Origin: Bacteroidales bacterium
Lineage (GTDB): Bacteria > Bacteroidota > Bacteroidia > Bacteroidales > P3
Length of the DNA stretch: 37,505 nucleotides
Reading direction: 5' to 3'
Assembly: GCA_017479705.1 (NCBI GenBank)
Contig: JAFVCA010000022.1
Location: 1-37,505, forward strand
Numbering within the stretch: position 1 is the stretch's first letter; every line of letters begins with the position of its first letter. A model generated the notes under the pieces. That model worked only from the letters and a program-made list of their open reading frames with translations. It was not told where the DNA came from and ran no database searches. The translations under genes were made by a program, and so were the position numbers. Positions 10,924 to 20,471 of the stretch are shown here, piece by piece.

Positions 10924-13900
10924 TTACCTGAGATAATCTTGGTTACCCAACATTCTTTTCAGTAAGTTGATAAAATCGTTCCTGAAACCATCGTTCTGAT
11001 GGTATTCCTTGTATAGCGACATATCGCCCCGGCGTGCTTGTCGCACTTTGCGGTCAACGATTCTGTTGAAGATGAAGTCGGCTGATTGTTGGTCTGAATT
11101 GCCCACCACAAGGTTTTTATACTCATCGTCTTCTACGATAGCCTTGGTGATGCTGATGAGTTTTGACTTCTGGTCGTCAGGTGTGGCATTCCACCCTTTA
11201 AACCATCTCTCGTTGAAGTCGCGTAATATGGCATCTAATGTTTCTTTTCCCTCTTCTTCCATGATCCCGGCATTAACCATCACTGCCTTGTTAGGGTCTA
11301 CTATGCTTTCGCCAGCATCCAGTTGGATGGTCTCGTTGAGCGAGGTACGCCGCAATCCGTAGGTGTTGAGGTCAACCGAGTCAAGCAAGTCTTTCAATTC
11401 GTCGTTGGCGGCATTCGGCACTACCAACTGAGGAATCAGAAAACGCAAAAACCAGAAGAGTTTCTCCCAGTCCTTCACCTCATAGCTCATAATGGCGGCG
11501 GCGCGTGAATAGACTTTGACAAACTGCTTGCATTTCATCTTGAAATCGGCCTTGCCGTTCTCGCCCCATTCTATTTCATGGTTGAATCGTTCGGCTGCCG
11601 AGTCGATAATAGGTGCCCACTTGTCGGCTTCTGCACCATGGATGTATAGGTTGATGAAGGTATCCACATCCTCCATCTCGAACACATCAAAACCGAGCAA
11701 TGTAGTCTTCAACTCATGCAGTATATTGACATCAGTAGCTTCCGACAAGGTGGTCGAAGTATAGAACGGGTCAAAGGCATTCTTAATGTCGTCGGTAGTG
11801 TTGTAGAAGTCGAGCACAAACAGGTCTTCGCTCAATTTGCCCAGTTCTGGAGCCGCACGATTGAGTCTTGACAATGCCTGAACCGCCAGCACCCCGTCCA
11901 GCGGTTTGTCGATATACATCGCACACAGCTTGGGCTGGTCAAACCCCGTCAGGTATTTGTTGGCAACCACAAGTATGCGGTATTCGTCTGTGTCAAACAT
12001 CTCGGCTGTCTTCGATTCGGGAAATCCGTTCAACCCTGCCTCGGTATAAATATTATTATTGAAGGAAAAACCTTCGGCAGCCTTTGGAATATCATTCTCC
12101 TCGTATTCCTCATTGGTTGAGAGTCGTTTCTCCCCCGAAAAAGCTATCAAGACCTTGAATGGCATCCGTTTTCCCTCTATCAATCTGCGCAACACTAAAT
12201 AATAACGTATGGCGCATTCGATGTCCTTAGTCACCACCATGGCTTTCGCCTTGCCTTTCAGCTTGTGGTTGCGGAATATCTTGGCATCGAAATGGTCAAG
12301 CATCACCTCAGCCTTGGCTTCGATGGTTCTTGGGTTTCGTTCCACGGTGCGGCGTAGCAGCTTTTGCGCTTTCTCGTTGTTGTATTCAGGATTATCTTCT
12401 ATGCTCTTGGTCAGTTCGTAGTAGCTGCGATAGGTGGTATAGTTGGTCAGCACGTCAAGGATAAAACCCTCCTCTATGGCCTGTTTCATGCTGTAAAGAT
12501 GAAAGGGATGATACTGTCCATCGGCATCCTTGCTGCCGAAGCGTTCCAGCGTCTCTTTCTTCGGTGTGGCGGTGAAGGCGAAGTACGAGCAGTTGCTGCT
12601 CATCTTTCGGTCACGCATCAGCTTTTCCAACAGGGCATCGGTGTCGCTGCCGTCGGCATCCGGGTCTTTCTGCACGGTGGCGTTGAGCTTGTTAGCGGCA
12701 ATGCCCGACTGCGAGCTGTGTGCCTCGTCTATTACGATGGCGAAGTTGTGACTGCTCACGTCGTTGATGCTGTCGCAGATGTAGGGGAACTTCTGTATGG
12801 TGGTGATGATGATCCGTTTTCCCTGTTCTATGGCAGTCTTCAGTCCCTTTGAACTGTCGGCATGTGCCACCGTCTTTTGGCTTTGACCGAAGGCTTTGAT
12901 GTTGTCTGTGATTTGCTTGTCGAGCAGACGGCGGTCAGTTACTACGATTACCGAGTCGAAGATCACCTTGTCCAATGCTCTGGCGCGCACGGCATCCATC
13001 GTCGCTGGACAGGTCTTGAGCAGTTTGTAAGCCAGCCAAGTCAGCGAGTTCGACTTACCCGAGCCCGCCGAGTGTTGTATTAGATAGGTCTTCCCAATGC
13101 CCGCACAGGCTACGTCCTTTTCCAATTGTGTCACCACATCCAGCTGGTGGTAGCGGGGGAAAATCAATTTCTTGGCATTCTTCATCACATGTGCCACCTT
13201 ATTCTGCGTTTTGGCCTCGCCATAGTCAAACAGCACATAGTTCATGATGATGTCGGCCACCGTGTCCCGCTGTAGAATCTGTTCCCACATGTAGGCAGTC
13301 TTGTAACCCCCGTTCTCGTTCACAGGGTTACCTGCTCCCTGTCCGTTGGCTAATCCCTTGTTGAAGGGCATAAAGTAAGTTTTTTCAAGGTTAAGGCGGG
13401 TGGTGAAATACACCTCGTCCTTGTCCATTGTGAAGTGCGCCAAACAGCGGCCGAAGTTCAGCAAGGTTTCTTTAGGGTTGCGTTCCATGGATTTATATTG
13501 TTTCTGTCCGTCGTAGCGGGCGGTCTGGTGCGTCCATGGGCTCTTCAGTTCAAAGGTGAACAGAGGCAGCCCGTTCACATATAACACTATGTCTATCTCC
13601 AATCCTGGGTTGGCAACCGAGAAGGTCTGCTGTCGAGTAATCGAGAACTGGTTCTGTGCATATTTGGCTTTCGACAGGTCGCTGTCGGCAGCAGAGGGCT
13701 TGGGATAGAACAACGACAACTTCATCGCTTGCAACTCCACGGGATGCCGCAACACATGTATCACACCAAAAGTAGTGATGTCCTTTGAAATCTGTCTCGA
13801 TACATCACCCATTAAATCCGGCCCCACATATTTGTTCAGCTCTTCTTGTTGTGTCGTTTTCAGAAACGACCACAGCCGCCGCAGGTCTAATGCCAGCCGC

Positions 13901-14064
13901 TTGTCGAAGTCCTTCGGCTGTCCCCAATAGTATTGTCCCTCGCTAGGCACTTGCGCATCAATATCGGTTAAGCCCAAATCCTGACGCTCCTCAATGGTAC
14001 TGCCCACCAGTGCCCGCTCTATCAAGGCCTCAAAAGCCTGCTCGTTGGTCTTGCTTGTGTTCAT
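10924..14064 (-). CDS. hsdR: Type I restriction enzyme, R (endonuclease/translocase) subunit
   Basis: A 1046-residue HsdR. It cuts unmethylated DNA after ATP-driven translocation, in complex with HsdM and HsdS. The N-terminal PD-(D/E)xK nuclease shows EIDIV (Asp158) and FELK (Glu172, Lys174). The SF2 motor follows, with Walker A HSAGSGKS (about 331-338), the DEAH box VIDEAHSSQSG, FAFTATP (motif III) and a later TGFDQPKL helicase motif. ATG 14064 is chosen: it overlaps the stop of the upstream AlbA_2 gene as ATGA, and an earlier start would run into that gene. The first 22 bases are duplicated exactly at 15721-15742, upstream of the AlbA_2 gene. All motifs look intact, so the enzyme is probably active. 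Confidence 0.95.
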   Translation of the reverse strand: MNTSKTNEQAFEALIERALVGSTIEERQDLGLTDIDAQVPSEGQYYWGQPKDFDKRLALDLRRLWSFLKTTQQEELNKYVGPDLMGDVSRQISKDITTFGVIHVLRHPVELQAMKLSLFYPKPSAADSDLSKAKYAQNQFSITRQQTFSVANPGLEIDIVLYVNGLPLFTFELKSPWTHQTARYDGQKQYKSMERNPKETLLNFGRCLAHFTMDKDEVYFTTRLNLEKTYFMPFNKGLANGQGAGNPVNENGGYKTAYMWEQILQRDTVADIIMNYVLFDYGEAKTQNKVAHVMKNAKKLIFPRYHQLDVVTQLEKDVACAGIGKTYLIQHSAGSGKSNSLTWLAYKLLKTCPATMDAVRARALDKVIFDSVIVVTDRRLLDKQITDNIKAFGQSQKTVAHADSSKGLKTAIEQGKRIIITTIQKFPYICDSINDVSSHNFAIVIDEAHSSQSGIAANKLNATVQKDPDADGSDTDALLEKLMRDRKMSSNCSYFAFTATPKKETLERFGSKDADGQYHPFHLYSMKQAIEEGFILDVLTNYTTYRSYYELTKSIEDNPEYNNEKAQKLLRRTVERNPRTIEAKAEVMLDHFDAKIFRNHKLKGKAKAMVVTKDIECAIRYYLVLRRLIEGKRMPFKVLIAFSGEKRLSTNEEYEENDIPKAAEGFSFNNNIYTEAGLNGFPESKTAEMFDTDEYRILVVANKYLTGFDQPKLCAMYIDKPLDGVLAVQALSRLNRAAPELGKLSEDLFVLDFYNTTDDIKNAFDPFYTSTTLSEATDVNILHELKTTLLGFDVFEMEDVDTFINLYIHGAEADKWAPIIDSAAERFNHEIEWGENGKADFKMKCKQFVKVYSRAAAIMSYEVKDWEKLFWFLRFLIPQLVVPNAANDELKDLLDSVDLNTYGLRRTSLNETIQLDAGESIVDPNKAVMVNAGIMEEEGKETLDAILRDFNERWFKGWNATPDDQKSKLISITKAIVEDDEYKNLVVGNSDQQSADFIFNRIVDRKVRQARRGDMSLYKEYHQNDGFRNDFINLLKRMLGNQDYLR
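14043..14064. repeat. 22-bp direct repeat, copy in the hsdR start
   Basis: The first seven codons of hsdR (MNTSKTN plus one base) are identical to 15721-15742. The two copies lie in the same orientation and bracket the AlbA_2 gene. Confidence 0.9.
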
Positions 14065-15683
14065 ATCTCTTTGTTTTGACTTACAGCCACATATTTCTGG
14101 TTGCGGTTTTTTGGTTGATCGGGAATAGTCATCTGTAGTCTTCCTGATCTTATTAAGGGCACAATGTATAGACGCCAAAAGGTATTTTTACTCTTCAATC
14201 CCACATGATTCATTATCTCTGTTTTGGAGCGAGGCATCTTGCAATATTCAATTATAGATTCTTCTCTCCGTTTTCTTATTTCGTTTCTTTCACCCTTTTT
14301 GCCGTTTCTTTCACCCTTTTTGTTTTTTCTTTCACCCTGCTTGTCGTTATTTCTTTCACTCTTTTTGCCGTTTCTTTCACCCTGTTCAACGTCGTTTCTT
14401 TCACCCTTTTTGTCGTTTCTTTCACCCTGTTCAACGTCGTTTCTTTCACCAGTTTCATTTTCGGATACTTCATCTGGATACCACAGCGACACATCTCCGG
14501 AGATGGGTGTCACTACCTCGAAGACGGTAATCAGATTCACATTAAACAGCGTTCCCACATTTCCATTCTCTTCAAGCAGTGCCGAAACACGGCTGATGCC
14601 TCGGTTGAACATATTGACATACCCTAAGTTTCTCAACGCTTCAGCAATAACGGGGTTGCGGTAGTCGTTCACATGTGGAAAGTTTTCTGGTCGGGCTTTC
14701 CCATACAAGCCGCCGGCATTCATAATTTCCACTCGGCCACGGTACTCATAATATCTAATAGGTGTATTGGCTTGGTAGTCGCGGTGCATTACGGCATTGA
14801 GCAGCAGTTCTCGTAGCGCATCTTTCGGATAGCTTATTGTCTGTTTCTCACGGAAGGCGGTAATGGGTACAGGTCGTGTTGTCACTACGGAGTTCTCCGT
14901 AAATACATCCAACTTAGGAAGCATCTCTACCAGACCACCAGAAAAGACCCGCTCGTTGATAATCGTGGCGGCACGGTCTCTTCCGTCGAACTTCACGTAT
15001 TGAACGTATGCCCCCGGGAGGAAATGTCGTGGATTTTTACCAAAGAGTATCACGGCGGCATTGGTGGGGCGGTCATTCTCCAAGTCATACAAACTGAGAG
15101 AGGCCAGTTGCTCCTTAATGTCTCGACGGTCTTCCGCCAAAGCCGCTGCATCCACGGCATGAGGCAGATAGTCTTTGCGGATGATGTCGACATCAATGTC
15201 CTCTAATCTTGCCCGCCAGCAGGGTAGCACATCAAAGGTGGCCATATTGGCTGTGCGGCGTTCCGTCAGGATGCGTTCCTCGTCTTCAGACGCAATGTCT
15301 CGGCGTGGCCCAATGCGTACAAACACGCGCCCTTTGTATCGTACTGGCGGGTGCAGAGACGGCTGTACTTCAACCACAAGCAAGTCGCCTTCAGGAAAGG
15401 TCAGTTTGTCAACCGACATGGTGGGGATAGGCAGGATATTGCCGTCGGAACGGATGGCAGATATTTTTTTTAACAAGTTGTCGCCCACAGCCAAGCCTGA
15501 CAGCTGGCCGTCGTCGGTGGCCCCTATCAGAAGATATCCATTCTGTCTGCTGTTTGGCAAGTCGTTACTAAAAGCACAAATAGCTTCGCAAAACTTGTCC
15601 ATATTGGTGGTCGAGATTGTCCTCTCTACTCGGAAACTCTCTGTGCTATGCAGCAATGCTAATGCTTCTTCTTTGTCTATCAT
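14061..15683 (-). CDS. AlbA_2/Schlafen-type ATP-binding regulator with a tandem-repeat linker
   Basis: A 540-residue protein found inside the type I R-M operon. Residues ~15-140 form an AlbA_2 (Schlafen AAA_4) domain: ESFRVERTIS, NGYLLIGATDDGQLSGL, VRYKGRVFVRIGPR. Residues ~285-370 resemble a GHKL-like ATP-binding domain (LRELLLNAVMHRDY, MNAGGLYG, NRGISRV), as in proteins often mislabelled RecG-like. Residues ~411-468 are eight GERN repeats in alternating 7- and 8-residue units, very charged. The C-terminus (SKTEIMNHVGLKSKNTFWRLYIVPLI) is a winged helix. Its role is unproven; regulation of the R-M system or a separate anti-phage activity is plausible. The stop codon overlaps the hsdR start. 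The gene is bracketed by 22-bp direct repeats, suggesting insertion as a cassette. Confidence 0.88.
   Translation of the reverse strand: MIDKEEALALLHSTESFRVERTISTTNMDKFCEAICAFSNDLPNSRQNGYLLIGATDDGQLSGLAVGDNLLKKISAIRSDGNILPIPTMSVDKLTFPEGDLLVVEVQPSLHPPVRYKGRVFVRIGPRRDIASEDEERILTERRTANMATFDVLPCWRARLEDIDVDIIRKDYLPHAVDAAALAEDRRDIKEQLASLSLYDLENDRPTNAAVILFGKNPRHFLPGAYVQYVKFDGRDRAATIINERVFSGGLVEMLPKLDVFTENSVVTTRPVPITAFREKQTISYPKDALRELLLNAVMHRDYQANTPIRYYEYRGRVEIMNAGGLYGKARPENFPHVNDYRNPVIAEALRNLGYVNMFNRGISRVSALLEENGNVGTLFNVNLITVFEVVTPISGDVSLWYPDEVSENETGERNDVEQGERNDKKGERNDVEQGERNGKKSERNNDKQGERKNKKGERNGKKGERNEIRKRREESIIEYCKMPRSKTEIMNHVGLKSKNTFWRLYIVPLIRSGRLQMTIPDQPKNRNQKYVAVSQNKEI
14280..14452 (-). repeat. 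In-frame minisatellite in the AlbA_2 gene
   Basis: Tandem units of 21 and 24 bp encode GERNGKK- and GERNDVEQ-type heptads and octads, eight copies with point differences. All units are multiples of three, so gain or loss changes linker length without shifting the frame. The last nearly identical units are the most likely to slip. Confidence 0.85.
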
Positions 15684-15697
15684 ATTCTACGCTGTTA

Positions 15698-15742
15698 TTT
15701 ACCCATGAAACAAGGGCTAACGTTGGTCTTGCTTGTGTTCAT
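15698..15742 (-). pseudogene. Remnant of the hsdR 5' end
   Basis: On the minus strand between hsdS and the AlbA_2 gene, an ATG at 15742 opens MNTSKTN, identical in DNA to the hsdR start, then diverges (VSPCFMGK) and stops after 15 codons. It looks like the stub of hsdR left when the AlbA_2 cassette entered, or a captured copy. The short peptide might still be translated and couple hsdS to the next gene. Confidence 0.6.
15721..15742. repeat. 22-bp direct repeat, copy upstream of the AlbA_2 gene
   Basis: Exact copy of 14043-14064 in the same orientation. The few bases upstream of the ATG are also partly alike. Recombination between the two copies would delete 1678 bp and restore hsdR directly behind hsdS. 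Confidence 0.9.
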
Positions 15743-15796: not shown

Positions 15797-17086
15797 TTAT
15801 CTCACTTTTACTTTGCCAGTTACTACTTCGTTTATTATTATCTGTTTGCGTTCTTGGAGGAGGACAATCTTTTGCTCAATTACACTTATTTCATGATTGA
15901 TGCTTGACATTTGTCTGTTTAGATATTCCACAATTCTATGTTGTTCTGTTAATGTGGGCAATGCAATATACAATCGTTTAAGTGAACTTGGATATATATG
16001 AACAATTATTTCTCCTTTTGACTCTTTATATCGATAGTCTTTTGCATCTTGGCTATTTAATGCGTATGAAATAAAGGTATTATTGCAATTATTCGTTCTC
16101 AGCAAAATGACATCACCACCTATATAGGCTTCATCGCCTTTATATACGACAGTTTTTCCAATATCTTCTTTTGTTTCCCCAGACCCTGTCATAATGATGT
16201 CATCATTGTAAATCCGGACAGATTCTTTGGCTGTTTTCTTGGACACAAAATGTTGGATGTTTTTAGCAATGATATTGTATTTTGTGTATATATCACCATA
16301 TAGAATAGCCTCCTTCCCATATTCAGTTAAACTATCTCGAGAGATATTGCCACCTTTGGAAAAAGACCCGAGAGATCCCAATCTACGTACTTCCCAGTGG
16401 GTGGGGATGTTGCCGAGCCAGTCGATGCCGGAGGGTTTCATTTTGGCGGTGGGGTCGAGGCCTTTGGTGACGGCGTTGTTGATGATGATTTGCTTGCGTT
16501 CGTTTAATAATTCTATCATCTTTTGCTGCTGCGCAATCGCCGCATCTATCTTTGACGTGACTTTATCAAGATAGGCGACAATGGCATTTTGCTCTCTTCT
16601 AGATGGTAGTGGCAAGTATAATTCTTTAAAGTCATTAAAACGGAAGTCTGTAGACCTTTCTCGTATCCCTTTCGCTAACGATAGGATAAAACCATTGCGT
16701 GCTAAACATCGTAATAATAGGCAATAGTAGTATTGGTTGACTTCATCACTTTTAGGAGTACAACAAGAGTATACAGGAGTGGCTTTCCCATCGGAATCTG
16801 ACACTCCAATAGAACCAGCAAAAGCATCCATATTGTGAATCACCAAATCCCCTTTCCGTACTCCTTGATAACCTATTTCTTTCAGCGAATTTGTAAATCC
16901 CTCTATTCGTCTATTTTTTCTAAGTGTTACTTGTCCATCACGAAAGCAGGTAACAATCTCATCATCTGGCCTTGTTGGTCTGTACTCTTCATTAAATAGA
17001 TACTTTGCTTTCCGAATCTTCCATTCTTTTGGTAGTCTCGGAAGAAAATATACGCTGCTGTCTTTATATTCGCTGTACCGTTCCAT
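15797..17086 (-). CDS. hsdS: Type I restriction enzyme, S (specificity) subunit
   Basis: A 429-residue HsdS, which recognises the bipartite DNA target for both methylation and cleavage. Two target-recognition domains (about residues 1-150 and 215-370) are each followed by a conserved coiled-coil spacer: the first reads AIVAYLDKVTSKIDAAIAQQ ending in LNERKQIIIN, the second RIVEYLNRQMSSINHEI ending in LQERKQIIIN. The two halves form the usual pseudo-symmetric repeat. The start is three bases after the fic stop codon. The recognition-domain DNA is visibly more AT-rich than the spacer around 16390-16500, as expected if specificity domains were swapped in by recombination. No second or silent hsdS is in the window. 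Confidence 0.93.
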   Translation of the reverse strand: MERYSEYKDSSVYFLPRLPKEWKIRKAKYLFNEEYRPTRPDDEIVTCFRDGQVTLRKNRRIEGFTNSLKEIGYQGVRKGDLVIHNMDAFAGSIGVSDSDGKATPVYSCCTPKSDEVNQYYYCLLLRCLARNGFILSLAKGIRERSTDFRFNDFKELYLPLPSRREQNAIVAYLDKVTSKIDAAIAQQQKMIELLNERKQIIINNAVTKGLDPTAKMKPSGIDWLGNIPTHWEVRRLGSLGSFSKGGNISRDSLTEYGKEAILYGDIYTKYNIIAKNIQHFVSKKTAKESVRIYNDDIIMTGSGETKEDIGKTVVYKGDEAYIGGDVILLRTNNCNNTFISYALNSQDAKDYRYKESKGEIIVHIYPSSLKRLYIALPTLTEQHRIVEYLNRQMSSINHEISVIEQKIVLLQERKQIIINEVVTGKVKVR

Positions 17087-17089
17087 AAA

Positions 17090-18154
17090 CTATTCCTTAT
17101 TAATGACCCATAGACCGCTTTTGCGACTTCCTTGACGGCTAATAACTCCTAAATCCCGAAGGCGTTTTATTTGCTTTTCAACTCCACGAAGACTTATACC
17201 TATCTGTTCGGCAATATCTTGTGCGGTGACTGAAGGATCGGCATGGAGCAACAACAGGATTCTCTTTTCATTTATACCGAACTTTATACCGAACTTTATA
17301 CCGAACTTATCACCGAATCTTATACCGAACTCTTCGTCGATAGTTGATATTGTCTCTTGATTTGTATTAGAAATAGGTTCGCCCTGATGGTCTTTTAGCG
17401 TCTTATGTATTTCATTCAACATGAAATCTATAAAAGGTCCGGACTGCCCCATGTTGGAACTGGCGGCGATGGCATCGTAATAGGCTTGCTGATTGGCATA
17501 TATCATGTTTTCTACTGGAAGATGCTCGAAGAGGGGATGAAGTTTGCCAAGTATCAGCGACTGCCACAGACGGCCCATGCGCCCATTGCCATCAATGAAC
17601 GGATGGATAAATTCAAACTCGAAATGGAATACACATGAGCGGATAAGCAGATGGTCTTTGGAATATTTGAGCCAATGAAACAAATCACTCATCAGAAGTG
17701 GCACTCTGTCGGCTGGTGGTGCCAGATGTACCAGCCCCCTTTCGCCGAATACGCCCACACCACCGCGACGGTAACAGCCAGCATCGTCAACCAAAGCCTG
17801 CATCATCACTCCATGCGCTTTCAAGAGGTCTTTTTCGCTAAAAGCGTCGAGCGTAGAGTATAGTTCGTATGTCTTGATAGCATTCTTTACTTCCTGTATT
17901 TGTCGAAGCGGTGCCACGATGGTTTTTCCATTGATGATGTCTCCCACCTCGTCTTCGGAAAGGGTGTTGCCTTCGATTGCCAAAGAGGAGTGGATGGTCT
18001 TAATGCGGTTGGCTTTGCGCAGACGAAGGCCGTCTTCCTGTTCCAGACGAATAGCATAACGTTCAACCTGTCTAGAAATTTCAGCTATGAGATTGATGGC
18101 TTCGGCACTCACTGTGAACGGCGGGGTATATGTGGGTTCGGTTTTCTTTGCCAT
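17090..18154 (-). CDS. Fic-family protein with N-terminal inhibitory motif and winged-helix C-terminus
   Basis: A 354-residue Fic protein. The catalytic motif HPFIDGNGRMGR (residues 184-195) is complete, so it should transfer AMP or another NMP from a nucleotide to a protein hydroxyl group. An autoinhibitory S/T-x-x-x-E-G/N motif is seen at Ser57-Glu61-Gly62 (SSLAIEGN), which marks a class II Fic protein with self-inhibition. Residues 276-295 are a tandem FGIK-type tetrapeptide repeat, followed by a winged helix (VTAQDIAEQIGISLRGVEKQIKRL). ATG 18154 is chosen; it lies four bases after the hsdM stop, and the longer ORF would overlap hsdM. The gene is tightly packed between hsdM and hsdS, suggesting a role in controlling the R-M complex, but no target is known. 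Confidence 0.92.
   Translation of the reverse strand: MAKKTEPTYTPPFTVSAEAINLIAEISRQVERYAIRLEQEDGLRLRKANRIKTIHSSLAIEGNTLSEDEVGDIINGKTIVAPLRQIQEVKNAIKTYELYSTLDAFSEKDLLKAHGVMMQALVDDAGCYRRGGVGVFGERGLVHLAPPADRVPLLMSDLFHWLKYSKDHLLIRSCVFHFEFEFIHPFIDGNGRMGRLWQSLILGKLHPLFEHLPVENMIYANQQAYYDAIAASSNMGQSGPFIDFMLNEIHKTLKDHQGEPISNTNQETISTIDEEFGIRFGDKFGIKFGIKFGINEKRILLLLHADPSVTAQDIAEQIGISLRGVEKQIKRLRDLGVISRQGSRKSGLWVINKE
17270..17329 (-). repeat. In-frame 12-bp tandem repeat in the fic gene
   Basis: Five 12-bp units encode FGIR, FGDK, FGIK, FGIK, FGIN between the Fic domain and the winged helix. The two central units are identical in protein and nearly so in DNA. Unit changes would keep the frame. Confidence 0.8.
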
Positions 18155-18158
18155 AATG

Positions 18159-20471
18159 CTATACGGTTTCAAACAATGACTGGATAAATCCTTGGCTTTG
18201 GCGGTCGAGTTCGAGGATGTCGCGCTCGTTTTCTTCGAGGGTGCGCAGGGGTGTCGGCTTGTAGAAGTATTTGTTGAATGAGATTTCGCAGCCAATCTTA
18301 GTAGGAGGCAGGTTGATCCACGCATCCGCCACGTAGGGGCGCACCTCGCGGAGGAAGTACTGGTAGATGTCCTCCTTGACGGGAATCTTCTCGGTGTCGC
18401 GCAGGTCGCTGTCGGTCTCGTACTCTACCCACACGCCTTTCTTCACAGGGTAGAAACCGTAGTCGCCCAGCCGTTCCCGTGCGATGCCATACACTTCGGT
18501 CAGCTCTTCAATCTCTTTGCTTGTGGCTTTGTGTTCTTTCTTCACCACCGGGGCGGCGTCGGGGTCGGGTTCCGACATGGCGCGGGCGATGGTCTTGAGG
18601 GTAGCTGCGTAGATGTCGAGTTTCTGCTGTTTGGCGGCGTCGGACAGTTGGTGGTAAAAGATGTTGTAGTCCATATAGACCTCTGTGCCGACAGTCCGCA
18701 ACAGGCTTTGTGCTGCCTGTTTTAGTGCCTGCCGGGCGTTCCAGTCTTTGGTGGAGATGAGCTTTGCCAGCTTTTTGTCGGTCAGCTTGATGTCGTTGTC
18801 GTTCAGATACTCCTTGATGGCGGGCAGTTCGTTGTCCAAGCCTTTGAAGACCCGCTCTCCGTAGGTTTGGTAGAGCCATCGCGATAGCTCCGCCTCGCCT
18901 TTGTCAAACAGCAGTTCGTCGACTTTCAGTGCGTTCATCTGGCAGCGCAGCCGCAGGGGTCGCTCGATGGTGACATTGTAATAGCGGAAGTCGTCGCCGT
19001 CGAATATCTTGGAAGCTATCTTATCGTTCTCCACCTCAACGAAATCCATGTAGGTCTTCACAATGAGGTCACGGTATTCGGGGGTGATGGTGCAGTTGCG
19101 CGAACCTTGGTTCTTGCGCAGTTTCTCGAATGCCCGTGAGGCATCGATAAGCTGCACCTTGCCTTGGCGGGTAGCGGGCTTTTTGTTGGTGAGCAGCCAC
19201 ACGTAGGTGGTGATGCCAGTATTGTAGAAAATATTGTTGGGCAGCTGTACGATGGCGTCGATCAGGTCATTCTCAACCATATAGCGGCGGATATTGCTCT
19301 CGCCGCTGCCGGCATCGCCGGTGAAGAGCGACGAGCCGTTGTGGATGGAGGCAACACGGCTGCCCTGCGGCTGTTGGTCGAGGGGTTTCATCTTGTCAAT
19401 CTCCTCAAGCATGAAGAGCAGTTGTCCGTCGGAGGTGCGGGGAGTGCAGTCGAGCACCTCCTCGTCACCCGCGTAGTTGGTCAGCGGCAGCTCAAAGCGC
19501 GAGTCGAGCAGGGTCTTCTCGTGATATATCTTCTCCTTGTCGGTCTTCCACGACTTACCGTAAGGCGGATTGGTGAGCTGGAATCCGAAAGACTGACCGC
19601 GGAAGTGGTCGTCGGTGATGGTGTTGCCGCGGTGCATGCCGTCGGGGTTGACACCCTTGATGATGAGGTCGGACTTGCAGATGGCGTAGGTCTCGGGGTT
19701 GATTTCCGTGCCGGATAGCAGGATAGCATTACTGCGCACCCCAAGGTCGAGTAGGTACTCGCGTCCTTCGGTGAGCATGCCACCGCTGCCTTCGGCAGGG
19801 TCGTGTAGGGTGATGACTTTGGGTAGATTGTCCTTGACAGGGTGGAAGACCAGATGTGCCAGCAACGAGATGGTATCGCGCGGGGTGAAGTGTTCGCCCG
19901 CCTCCTCGTTGTTTTCCTCGTTGAAGCGGCGCAACAATTCCTCAAATACTGTGCCCATGTCGATATTGGTTAGGGCGGGCAGCGGGAGACCGTCGGGGTC
20001 GCGCGCCTCCTTGTCGGTGAGGTTGATGTGCGGGTCGGTGATTTTCTCAATCATCGAGAGCAAGCGGTCGTTGTCGGCCAGCTTGCGGGCCTTGGTGTAA
20101 TACTCGAAATTCCGTAACACGTCGCGCACATTCTCGCTGTAGCCGTTGAGGTATTCGACGAAGTTGTCGTAGAGTAGGTCGTTGTTGTCAGAGGCTTGCG
20201 ACTTCAATCGATTGAGCGTCCACTTGCTGGTGTTGAAATAGCTGAGGCCAGTGATGTCCTTTAGCACGCCCTCGTCAATGTTATTGATTCCGGTCTCTTG
20301 TATCTCCTCCTCCACTTCCTGCTTAGTAGGTTCGAGCAACGCATCCAAACGACGCAACACCACCATGGGGAGGATAACATCGCGGTATTGTCCACGTAGG
20401 AATACATCGCGCAATACATCGTCGGCAATCGACCAAATAAAAGATATTATGTGAGAGTGGGCAGTGTCCAT
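18159..20471 (-). CDS. hsdM: Type I restriction enzyme, M (adenine N6-methyltransferase) subunit
   Basis: A 770-residue HsdM, which transfers a methyl group from S-adenosylmethionine to adenine in the target site chosen by HsdS. The N-terminal helical domain covers about residues 1-150 (IISFIWSIADDVLRDVF, DVILPMVVLRRLDALL). AGEHFTPRDTISLLAHLV follows. Motif I is DPAEGSGGM (224-232), and the catalytic motif IV is NPPYG (301-305). It is longer than classical HsdM (about 500 residues): a C-terminal ~250-residue extension with helical, charged segments is of the kind seen in many Bacteroidetes enzymes. It is the first gene of the five-gene operon. No perfect promoter was found; a 7/8 match to the -7 element lies at 20513-20520 on the minus strand. 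Confidence 0.95.
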   Translation of the reverse strand: MDTAHSHIISFIWSIADDVLRDVFLRGQYRDVILPMVVLRRLDALLEPTKQEVEEEIQETGINNIDEGVLKDITGLSYFNTSKWTLNRLKSQASDNNDLLYDNFVEYLNGYSENVRDVLRNFEYYTKARKLADNDRLLSMIEKITDPHINLTDKEARDPDGLPLPALTNIDMGTVFEELLRRFNEENNEEAGEHFTPRDTISLLAHLVFHPVKDNLPKVITLHDPAEGSGGMLTEGREYLLDLGVRSNAILLSGTEINPETYAICKSDLIIKGVNPDGMHRGNTITDDHFRGQSFGFQLTNPPYGKSWKTDKEKIYHEKTLLDSRFELPLTNYAGDEEVLDCTPRTSDGQLLFMLEEIDKMKPLDQQPQGSRVASIHNGSSLFTGDAGSGESNIRRYMVENDLIDAIVQLPNNIFYNTGITTYVWLLTNKKPATRQGKVQLIDASRAFEKLRKNQGSRNCTITPEYRDLIVKTYMDFVEVENDKIASKIFDGDDFRYYNVTIERPLRLRCQMNALKVDELLFDKGEAELSRWLYQTYGERVFKGLDNELPAIKEYLNDNDIKLTDKKLAKLISTKDWNARQALKQAAQSLLRTVGTEVYMDYNIFYHQLSDAAKQQKLDIYAATLKTIARAMSEPDPDAAPVVKKEHKATSKEIEELTEVYGIARERLGDYGFYPVKKGVWVEYETDSDLRDTEKIPVKEDIYQYFLREVRPYVADAWINLPPTKIGCEISFNKYFYKPTPLRTLEENERDILELDRQSQGFIQSLFETV

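Follow-up and report, generated by a model that had tools for sequence, protein, structure and literature searches.

Operon organisation and the 22-bp direct repeat

A type I restriction-modification (R-M) operon is encoded in a 37,505-nucleotide stretch of DNA from a Bacteroidales bacterium (assembly GCA_017479705.1, contig JAFVCA010000022.1; this whole stretch is hereafter called the window). Its components, all on the minus strand, stand in the order hsdM, fic, hsdS, stub, accessory gene and hsdR. We focus on the accessory gene (hereafter the AlbA_2 gene), on an exact 22-bp repeat of the hsdR start that brackets it, and on the stub, a short hsdR-like head that is opened by the upstream copy of the repeat. 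The features are as follows:

18159..20471, minus strand: hsdM, with N6_Mtase and HsdM_N domains
17090..18154, minus strand: fic accessory gene between hsdM and hsdS, with a Fic domain and a winged helix (PADLOC SoFic model, E=3.8e-42); presumed start at codon 58 of a long open reading frame (ORF)
15797..17086, minus strand: hsdS, with a Methylase_S domain
15695..15742, minus strand: hsdR-head stub, MNTSKTNVSPCFMGK and a stop codon, the probable displaced former start of hsdR
15721..15742, minus strand: upstream copy of the 22-bp direct repeat
14065..15720, minus strand: segment between the repeat copies, 1656 bp (1678 bp including one copy)
14061..15683, minus strand: accessory gene, with SLFN_AlbA_2, HATPase_c_4 and Fic-like_C domains
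14043..14064, minus strand: downstream copy of the 22-bp repeat, corresponding to the first 22 bases of hsdR
10924..14064, minus strand: hsdR, with HSDR_N, SWI2_SNF2 and T1R_D3-like domains

The frames of hsdM, hsdS and hsdR are open and encode the expected domains, and the position of the AlbA_2 gene between hsdS and hsdR places it in the class of R-linked (rlo) genes. The two repeat copies (14043-14064 and 15721-15742) are identical at 22 of 22 positions, in the same orientation and with a spacing of 1678, and the similarity extends to 31 of 34 positions. Allowing up to three mismatches, the 22-mer of the hsdR start matches these two places only in the window (mean of 100 shuffles, 0.00). 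The exact 22-mer is likewise confined to these two sites, with no third copy, in the source genome, an incomplete draft of 53 contigs that is 74.7% complete.

The stub, MNTSKTNVSPCFMGK followed by a stop codon (15742..15695), begins with the hsdR start and ends after 15 codons. It lies 54 bases behind the hsdS stop and ends 11 bases before the start codon of the AlbA_2 gene, whose own stop overlaps the start codon of hsdR as ATGA (14061-14064). A cross between the two copies would delete 1678 bp and place hsdR 54 bp behind hsdS. The exact repeat upstream of the AlbA_2 gene, the 15-codon stub and the length and outcome of this deletion had all been given in a preliminary description of the locus and were recovered here. 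Its further suggestion that the cargo may be lost reversibly found no support in a thin test: no deletion form was detected in one exact-pattern scan of viral contigs or in genome sets that hold one genome per species.

We read the 22-bp repeat as the probable scar of a recombination event. Accessory genes would enter by one-sided recombination anchored in hsdR, and the stub would be the displaced start of the resident gene.

Cargo and hsdR-head stubs in related loci

In related operons, the interval between hsdS and hsdR is either occupied by unrelated cargo or empty. Among 190 genomes of the family, orthologs of the window hsdR outside the source genome were found in G067, G066 and G156 (73-75% identical), and further ones within the same order in G388 (75%) and G550 (68%). 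These genes are preceded by fic and others in G067, by AAA-type ATPases in G156 and G388, and by SIR2 in G550. An AlbA_2 gene before hsdR is present in none of these four, nor in the 130 bp upstream of hsdR in G066, of which the 60 bp compared match G067 except for one base. The preliminary description had proposed that the cargo entered at the hsdR start, and had called for relatives lacking the AlbA_2 gene and for other cargo at the same site. Both were found, the cargo belonging to unrelated families, and entry at the hsdR start is supported by the orthologous hsdR genes standing behind other genes and by stubs of the same kind before other cargo elsewhere. The older order hsdM-fic-hsdS-hsdR that it proposed would fit as well.

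Farther from the window hsdR, the distance between hsdS and hsdR is either about 10 bp or less (L115, L116 and L118) or several kilobases. The cargo of these loci includes GmrSD-type proteins, AAA ATPases, RhuM, YhcG-type nucleases, M78 with DUF4411 and a YoeB-like toxin domain, among others. The interval exceeds 150 bp in 39 of the 53 loci related to the window hsdR, four of which (L172, L175, L177 and L191) have no ORF of at least 70 amino acids there, and in most occupied loci the cargo stop is closely joined to the hsdR start. In L169, a 100-amino-acid ORF (11758-12060) with a Fic-like_C domain only precedes hsdR, its stop codon overlapping the start of that gene. Its product shares 50% identity with the C-terminal end of the cargo protein of L114, and the ORF may be a truncated remnant.

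To find stubs, we took from each locus the first 21 codons of hsdR and 75 bases spanning its start, and compared them with the upstream region. The first scan covered 54 loci including the window, and its rate is given over the 53 others: stubs precede other cargo in three of them (L114, L166 and L182). The L114 stub, MNKSQTNEQALNTFKNKK followed by a stop codon, shares 20 bp exactly with the working start and that of L166 shares 42 bp, while the L182 stub reaches a peptide score of 44 against a shuffled maximum of 28, with no exact match of 12 bp or more. A further stub locus, L205, was found in a search of the family of the L166 genome and for that reason is not an independent sample. A second, distantly related HsdR was met by chance with a stub before a BRO-N gene (L069) and, used as a query, has matches in 27 of 324 genomes. 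From these genomes 25 loci were fetched (all but those of G230 and G308) and 24 were scanned, L285 being without upstream sequence; three of the 24 carry stubs (L263, 20 bp exact; L269, decayed; L281, 35 bp exact). Several of the 24 have little upstream sequence, and cargo was no selection criterion.

These rates exclude the window and L069, which came to attention through their stubs; L205 is given apart and L085, whose contig ends 130 bp upstream, was left unscanned. Three peptide scores barely above the shuffled maximum were also disregarded: 29 in L084 (maximum 27), 24 in L169 (23) and, in the second family, 41 in L286 (39). The total is nine stubs including the window, eight of them in other assemblies; the rates are drawn from several dozen loci, most of which belong to a single phylum, in the same one-genome-per-species sets. 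Two side observations concern the second family. Twenty of the 27 relatives of the L069 HsdR match it only from about residue 240-255 onward; in those fetched, the first ~15 residues are alike again, and the N-terminal part between is diverged or exchanged. In L281, 4105 to 1250 bases before hsdR and upstream of the stub, we read by eye three genes: one resembling AlbA_2, one for a small membrane protein and one resembling a nucleotide cyclase, the last of which we take to be Pycsar-like.

As a control, the interval was compared with the rest of the available hsdR sequence (about 700 bp for 40 of the 41 loci whose gap exceeds 150 bp, and 3 kb for 11). The only matches of at least 14 bp were two isolated 14-mers, with none of 15 bp or more. 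The first 63 bases of hsdR, by comparison, give matches of 20 bp (L114), 22 bp (window) and 42 bp (L166); the stubs of L182 and L205 are too diverged for this exact-match control and are missed by it.

The draft state of the source genome, with its 53 contigs, could suggest that the repeat is a misjoin made during assembly. The hsdR frame is intact, the genes are tightly packed and stubs recur in the eight other assemblies, so that we regard such an artefact as extremely improbable. The stub could also act as a leader, a short ORF that controls through coupling how the accessory gene or hsdR is translated, as might be expected from the start codon retained in all nine stubs and from the 11 bases that separate the window stub from the AlbA_2 start. 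We nevertheless hold this function to be highly improbable: the stubs are rare and occur at different cargo, their distance to the next gene varies, and some are decayed or frameshifted.

Comparison of each stub with the working hsdR start of the same locus bears on the two other alternatives. Stub and working head differ in sequence in six of the nine loci, and the extent of their similarity differs in all nine. The codons before the shared core are different in L114, L166, L205 and L069, and many bases differ in L182 and L269; an identical stretch is found in the window (22 bp), L263 (20 bp) and L281 (35 bp). Across loci, the exact repeats measure 20, 22, 23, 35 or 42 bp. The L205 stub is 94-95% identical to the stub and hsdR head of L166 and 100% identical over 37 bases to the head of L165, and the working hsdR of L205 is only 78% identical to that of L166 although their hsdM genes are 95% identical. 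L165 and L166 share hsdR from base 16 onward (90% identical) and hsdM (92%), and differ in their first hsdR codons and in their cargo. In L114, a DUF262 gene comes before the stub and its stop overlaps the stub start codon, an arrangement expected of a former working start; the stub start codons of L205 and L166 lie 3 and 21 bases behind the gene before them. Since other cargo stands upstream of the stub in L114, L166 and L205, the cargo adjoining hsdR should be the newest.

A tandem duplication within one genome, by unequal crossing over, could have copied the hsdR start without any imported DNA, in line with the 22/22 identity of the window copies and the exact repeats of L263 and L281. Such an event brings no new gene and predicts identical alleles, contrary to what is seen in L114, L166, L205 and L069, and in a plasmid pair described below the cargo came in along with a divergent hsdR head; we consider a tandem duplication very unlikely. 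Alternatively, the segment could be a dedicated mobile cassette that a recombinase acting in trans inserts at the hsdR start, the repeat being a target duplication or the core of an attachment site and the cassette being able to excise again. In favour of such a cassette, the two copies in the window match exactly from the start codon onward. The AlbA_2 gene, the sole gene of the segment, encodes no recombinase or transposase domain detectable with Pfam, which still allows for a transposase in trans, and there are no inverted repeats of at least 7 bp at the ends of the segment. Moreover, the repeat length varies from 20 to 42 bp, the copies differ in six of nine loci and the cargo families are unrelated. 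We judge this cassette unlikely, and the same holds for a transposon or site-specific element in general because a recombinase domain and terminal inverted repeats are lacking and the copies vary in allele and length, the window copies themselves being identical. The differing copies, their differing extents and the lack of such inverted repeats are also our reasons for preferring a recombination scar to the ends of a mobile element.

Proposed recombination anchored in the hsdR head

Two Escherichia coli plasmids, pLAO4 (L119) and pCUVET18-789.1 (L196), differ by an import of this kind. They are 99.3% identical to the end of hsdM and 99.7% identical from base 153 of hsdR. Between hsdM and the conserved part of hsdR, pCUVET18-789.1 carries hsdS, a DUF4268 gene and the hsdR start, while pLAO4 carries a partly different hsdS and only the beginning of DUF4268, cut short and 95% identical, before a pair of DUF262 genes and an hsdR head that is divergent over 152 bp. 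By the alignment ends, 3514 bp in pLAO4 replace 781 bp and leave the DUF4268 gene truncated, one end apparently joined by homology and the other without it. The hsdR of this plasmid type has matches in 58 of 5426 E. coli genomes, 56 of them covering at least 80% of the query. Among the best 40 of these 58 matches, 38 begin at query base 251, beyond the divergent part, and two are partial, one of which is a disrupted remnant. Four of the 38 were opened, and DUF4268 precedes hsdR in all of them, frameshifted in one.

A search for the donor of the pLAO4 insert found none. Cargo of the same family was considered as evidence of a donor and rejected, the proteins being 26-29% identical between an AAA, DUF4276 and hsdR arrangement of Meiothermus and L166, and between the DUF262 pair of pLAO4 and that of L114; the two DUF4276 proteins (Meiothermus and L166) have no significant match to each other. 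To judge from these alignments, such cargo points to the same kind of arrangement and not to the donor.

In the recombination that we propose, the cargo directly before hsdR would travel between type I R-M operons on fragments that carry the 5' end of the donor hsdR. On the right side, this 5' end would serve as the homologous anchor; on the left side, the fragment would be joined without long homology, either in the first codons of the resident hsdR or within older cargo. A left join within hsdR itself would preserve the former start as a short stub, behind which the new cargo and then a new hsdR start would come. The operon would keep working because the stop of the last cargo gene overlaps or adjoins the hsdR start codon and moves along with it.

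Two described routes would yield products of this kind, and the statement of the preliminary description that no mobility mechanism is known for such genes was too strong. In homology-facilitated illegitimate recombination (HFIR), a linear DNA with one homologous end gives an insertion together with a deletion, mostly at microhomologies of 3-10 bp (PMC3240628). In the alternative, linear DNA is circularised and integrated by a single crossover. The target gene is then partly duplicated around the insert, an outcome about 10 times as frequent as HFIR in that E. coli assay (PMC3240628). The pLAO4 locus looks like a product of HFIR, with apparently one homologous end, one illegitimate end and a loss of resident DNA. 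The window looks more like circularisation and single crossover, to whose product its anatomy is the closest match: a shared segment, here 22 bp, is exactly and directly duplicated around the insert. HFIR is a laboratory description, and the window has no known pre-insertion form. We infer that the window arose by the same process as the other stub loci, whether by one-sided illegitimate joining or by circularisation followed by a single crossover. Several relatives would need a replacement besides a single crossover, because their working start, or their whole hsdR, is a different allele.

Several observations weigh against this scenario. The exact repeats of the window (22/22), L263 (20 bp) and L281 (35 bp) also fit a simple duplication, and 22/22 identity alone does not distinguish import from duplication. 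For the window locus, neither a donor nor an empty site turned up. A foreign 5' tract was sought in the window hsdR and rejected: its first 50 codons are 57-65% identical to the orthologs, not clearly below the rest, in a test with four orthologs of which one (L112, with a frame interrupted near the start) gave mostly unusable columns. The left join of pLAO4 lies inside cargo and not in hsdR, and exemplifies the route without the stub; the two plasmids may also have carried different alleles already, because the hsdS end and the DUF4268 start are only 95% identical. Finally, most cargo-carrying loci have no stub, and none was found within the 6.5 kb searched at 14 plasmid and E. coli loci, of which five are E. 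coli loci of one kind and two (L119 and L120) are also among the 53. The scar may be less common outside the sampled phylum.

Other anchors, known systems and implications

The AlbA_2 gene matches SLFN_AlbA_2 (E=2.5e-15; 57.5 bits, above the Pfam cut-off of 25.3), HATPase_c_4 (2.9e-10) and Fic-like_C (4.7e-12), and its protein matches only parts of the pAgo and Aga models of PADLOC at E<=1e-5. Given these domains, we expect its product to work in connection with the R-M system, as a regulator or an effector. Its nearest relative found within the family, in G030, is 72% identical over residues 1-440 and lies directly behind two genes that we read by eye, without a domain search, as parts of a different R-M island, one for a methylase and the other S-like. 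Genes with AlbA_2 and HATPase_c_4 domains also occupy the hsdS-hsdR intervals of L160, L173 and L174. Within the window gene, in-frame tandem repeats of 21 and 24 bases (14282-14472) encode a GERN-type linker before the C-terminal domain, with similarly placed linkers in L114 (TGQA) and L269 (GGQI). The fic gene has a resembling design, with 12-base tandem repeats (17271-17330) that encode an FGIK-type linker before the winged helix.

The idea that AlbA_2 genes are themselves specially mobile was not retained. Repeats of at least 18 bp bracket four of 59 AlbA_2 relatives against five of 453 other ORFs of the same loci. Judged by repeat length, the four loci should be L016, L035, L046 and L047; since L046 and L047 resemble one event and the L016 repeat is intergenic and palindrome-like, no clear enrichment emerges. 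Among the five control repeats, two are gene-start stubs themselves (L055, NUDIX; L069, hsdR). In L046 (9933-9951 and 11516-11534) and L047 (9932-9950 and 11531-11549), a 19-bp repeat brackets an AlbA_2 gene that precedes a PIF1-like helicase gene, the repeat lying near the helicase start. L035 (9615-9696 and 11463-11544, 82 bp exact) and L036 (3850-3908 and 5705-5763, 59 bp exact) present a mirror-image scar at a gene end, in which the 3' end and downstream region of a gene read as ileS are repeated behind an AlbA_2 relative, over a longer extent if mismatches are allowed. In L055, the start of a NUDIX gene (12798-12850 and 14162-14214, 54 bp) is repeated before an AAA_14/DUF4143 gene that lies between vsr and NUDIX, a scar of the same type outside type I R-M systems.

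Repeats of the other operon genes were also sought. Those of the hsdS end are absent from all 40 hsdS-hsdR gaps, and hsdS was rejected as an anchor on the other side, 31 hsdM-hsdS gaps giving two matches to the hsdS start only, both in L169 and read as intergenic repeats. The same 31 gaps yield matches to the hsdM end in L087 (49 bp), in L178 (21 bp, weak) and twice in L169, where they lie behind the gene. In L087, the 49 bp of the hsdM 3' end (763-811 and 2634-2682) are repeated behind the cargo of the hsdM-hsdS interval; one gene of this operon is YhcG by Pfam, and two more appear similar by eye.

Accessory genes in type I R-M operons are known. The hsd loci of Campylobacter jejuni carry R-linked (rlo) and M-linked (mlo) ORFs (PMC5183652, citing Miller et al., 2005), whose presence is described, with no scar or entry route, in the part of that account available to us. 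In the loci studied here, by contrast, entry would be marked by hsdR-head stubs on the R side and by repeats of the hsdM tail (L087, weakly L178) on the M side. Defence genes nested like the window cargo include darTG2 of enteropathogenic E. coli, between hsdS and hsdR at a site termed a potential recombination hotspot (PMC12255303), and prrC, embedded in the EcoprrI type I R-M operon (PMC3874165); no scar or anchor is described for either in the accessible portions of these two papers. Titles and abstract openings in the literature gave no description of hsdR-head scars, which is weak evidence of absence with subscription papers and preprints outside this scope. While R- and M-linked cargo and both recombination routes were already known, the scars themselves appear, on this weak evidence, to be undescribed.

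A wider possibility, which we advance tentatively and hold to be somewhat doubtful, is that type I R-M operons are homology-driven loading docks. The hsdR head, and also the hsdM tail, would anchor the exchange of cargo with a built-in hsdR start, the newest cargo adjoining hsdR and the stubs recording successive arrivals, as in L114, L166 and L205. If the stubs are entry scars, the route of entry becomes testable from sequence alone, in its place, its order and its use of the hsdR 5' end as anchor. It would also explain why the close relatives L165 and L166 differ in the first codons of hsdR while the remainder of the gene is 90% identical.

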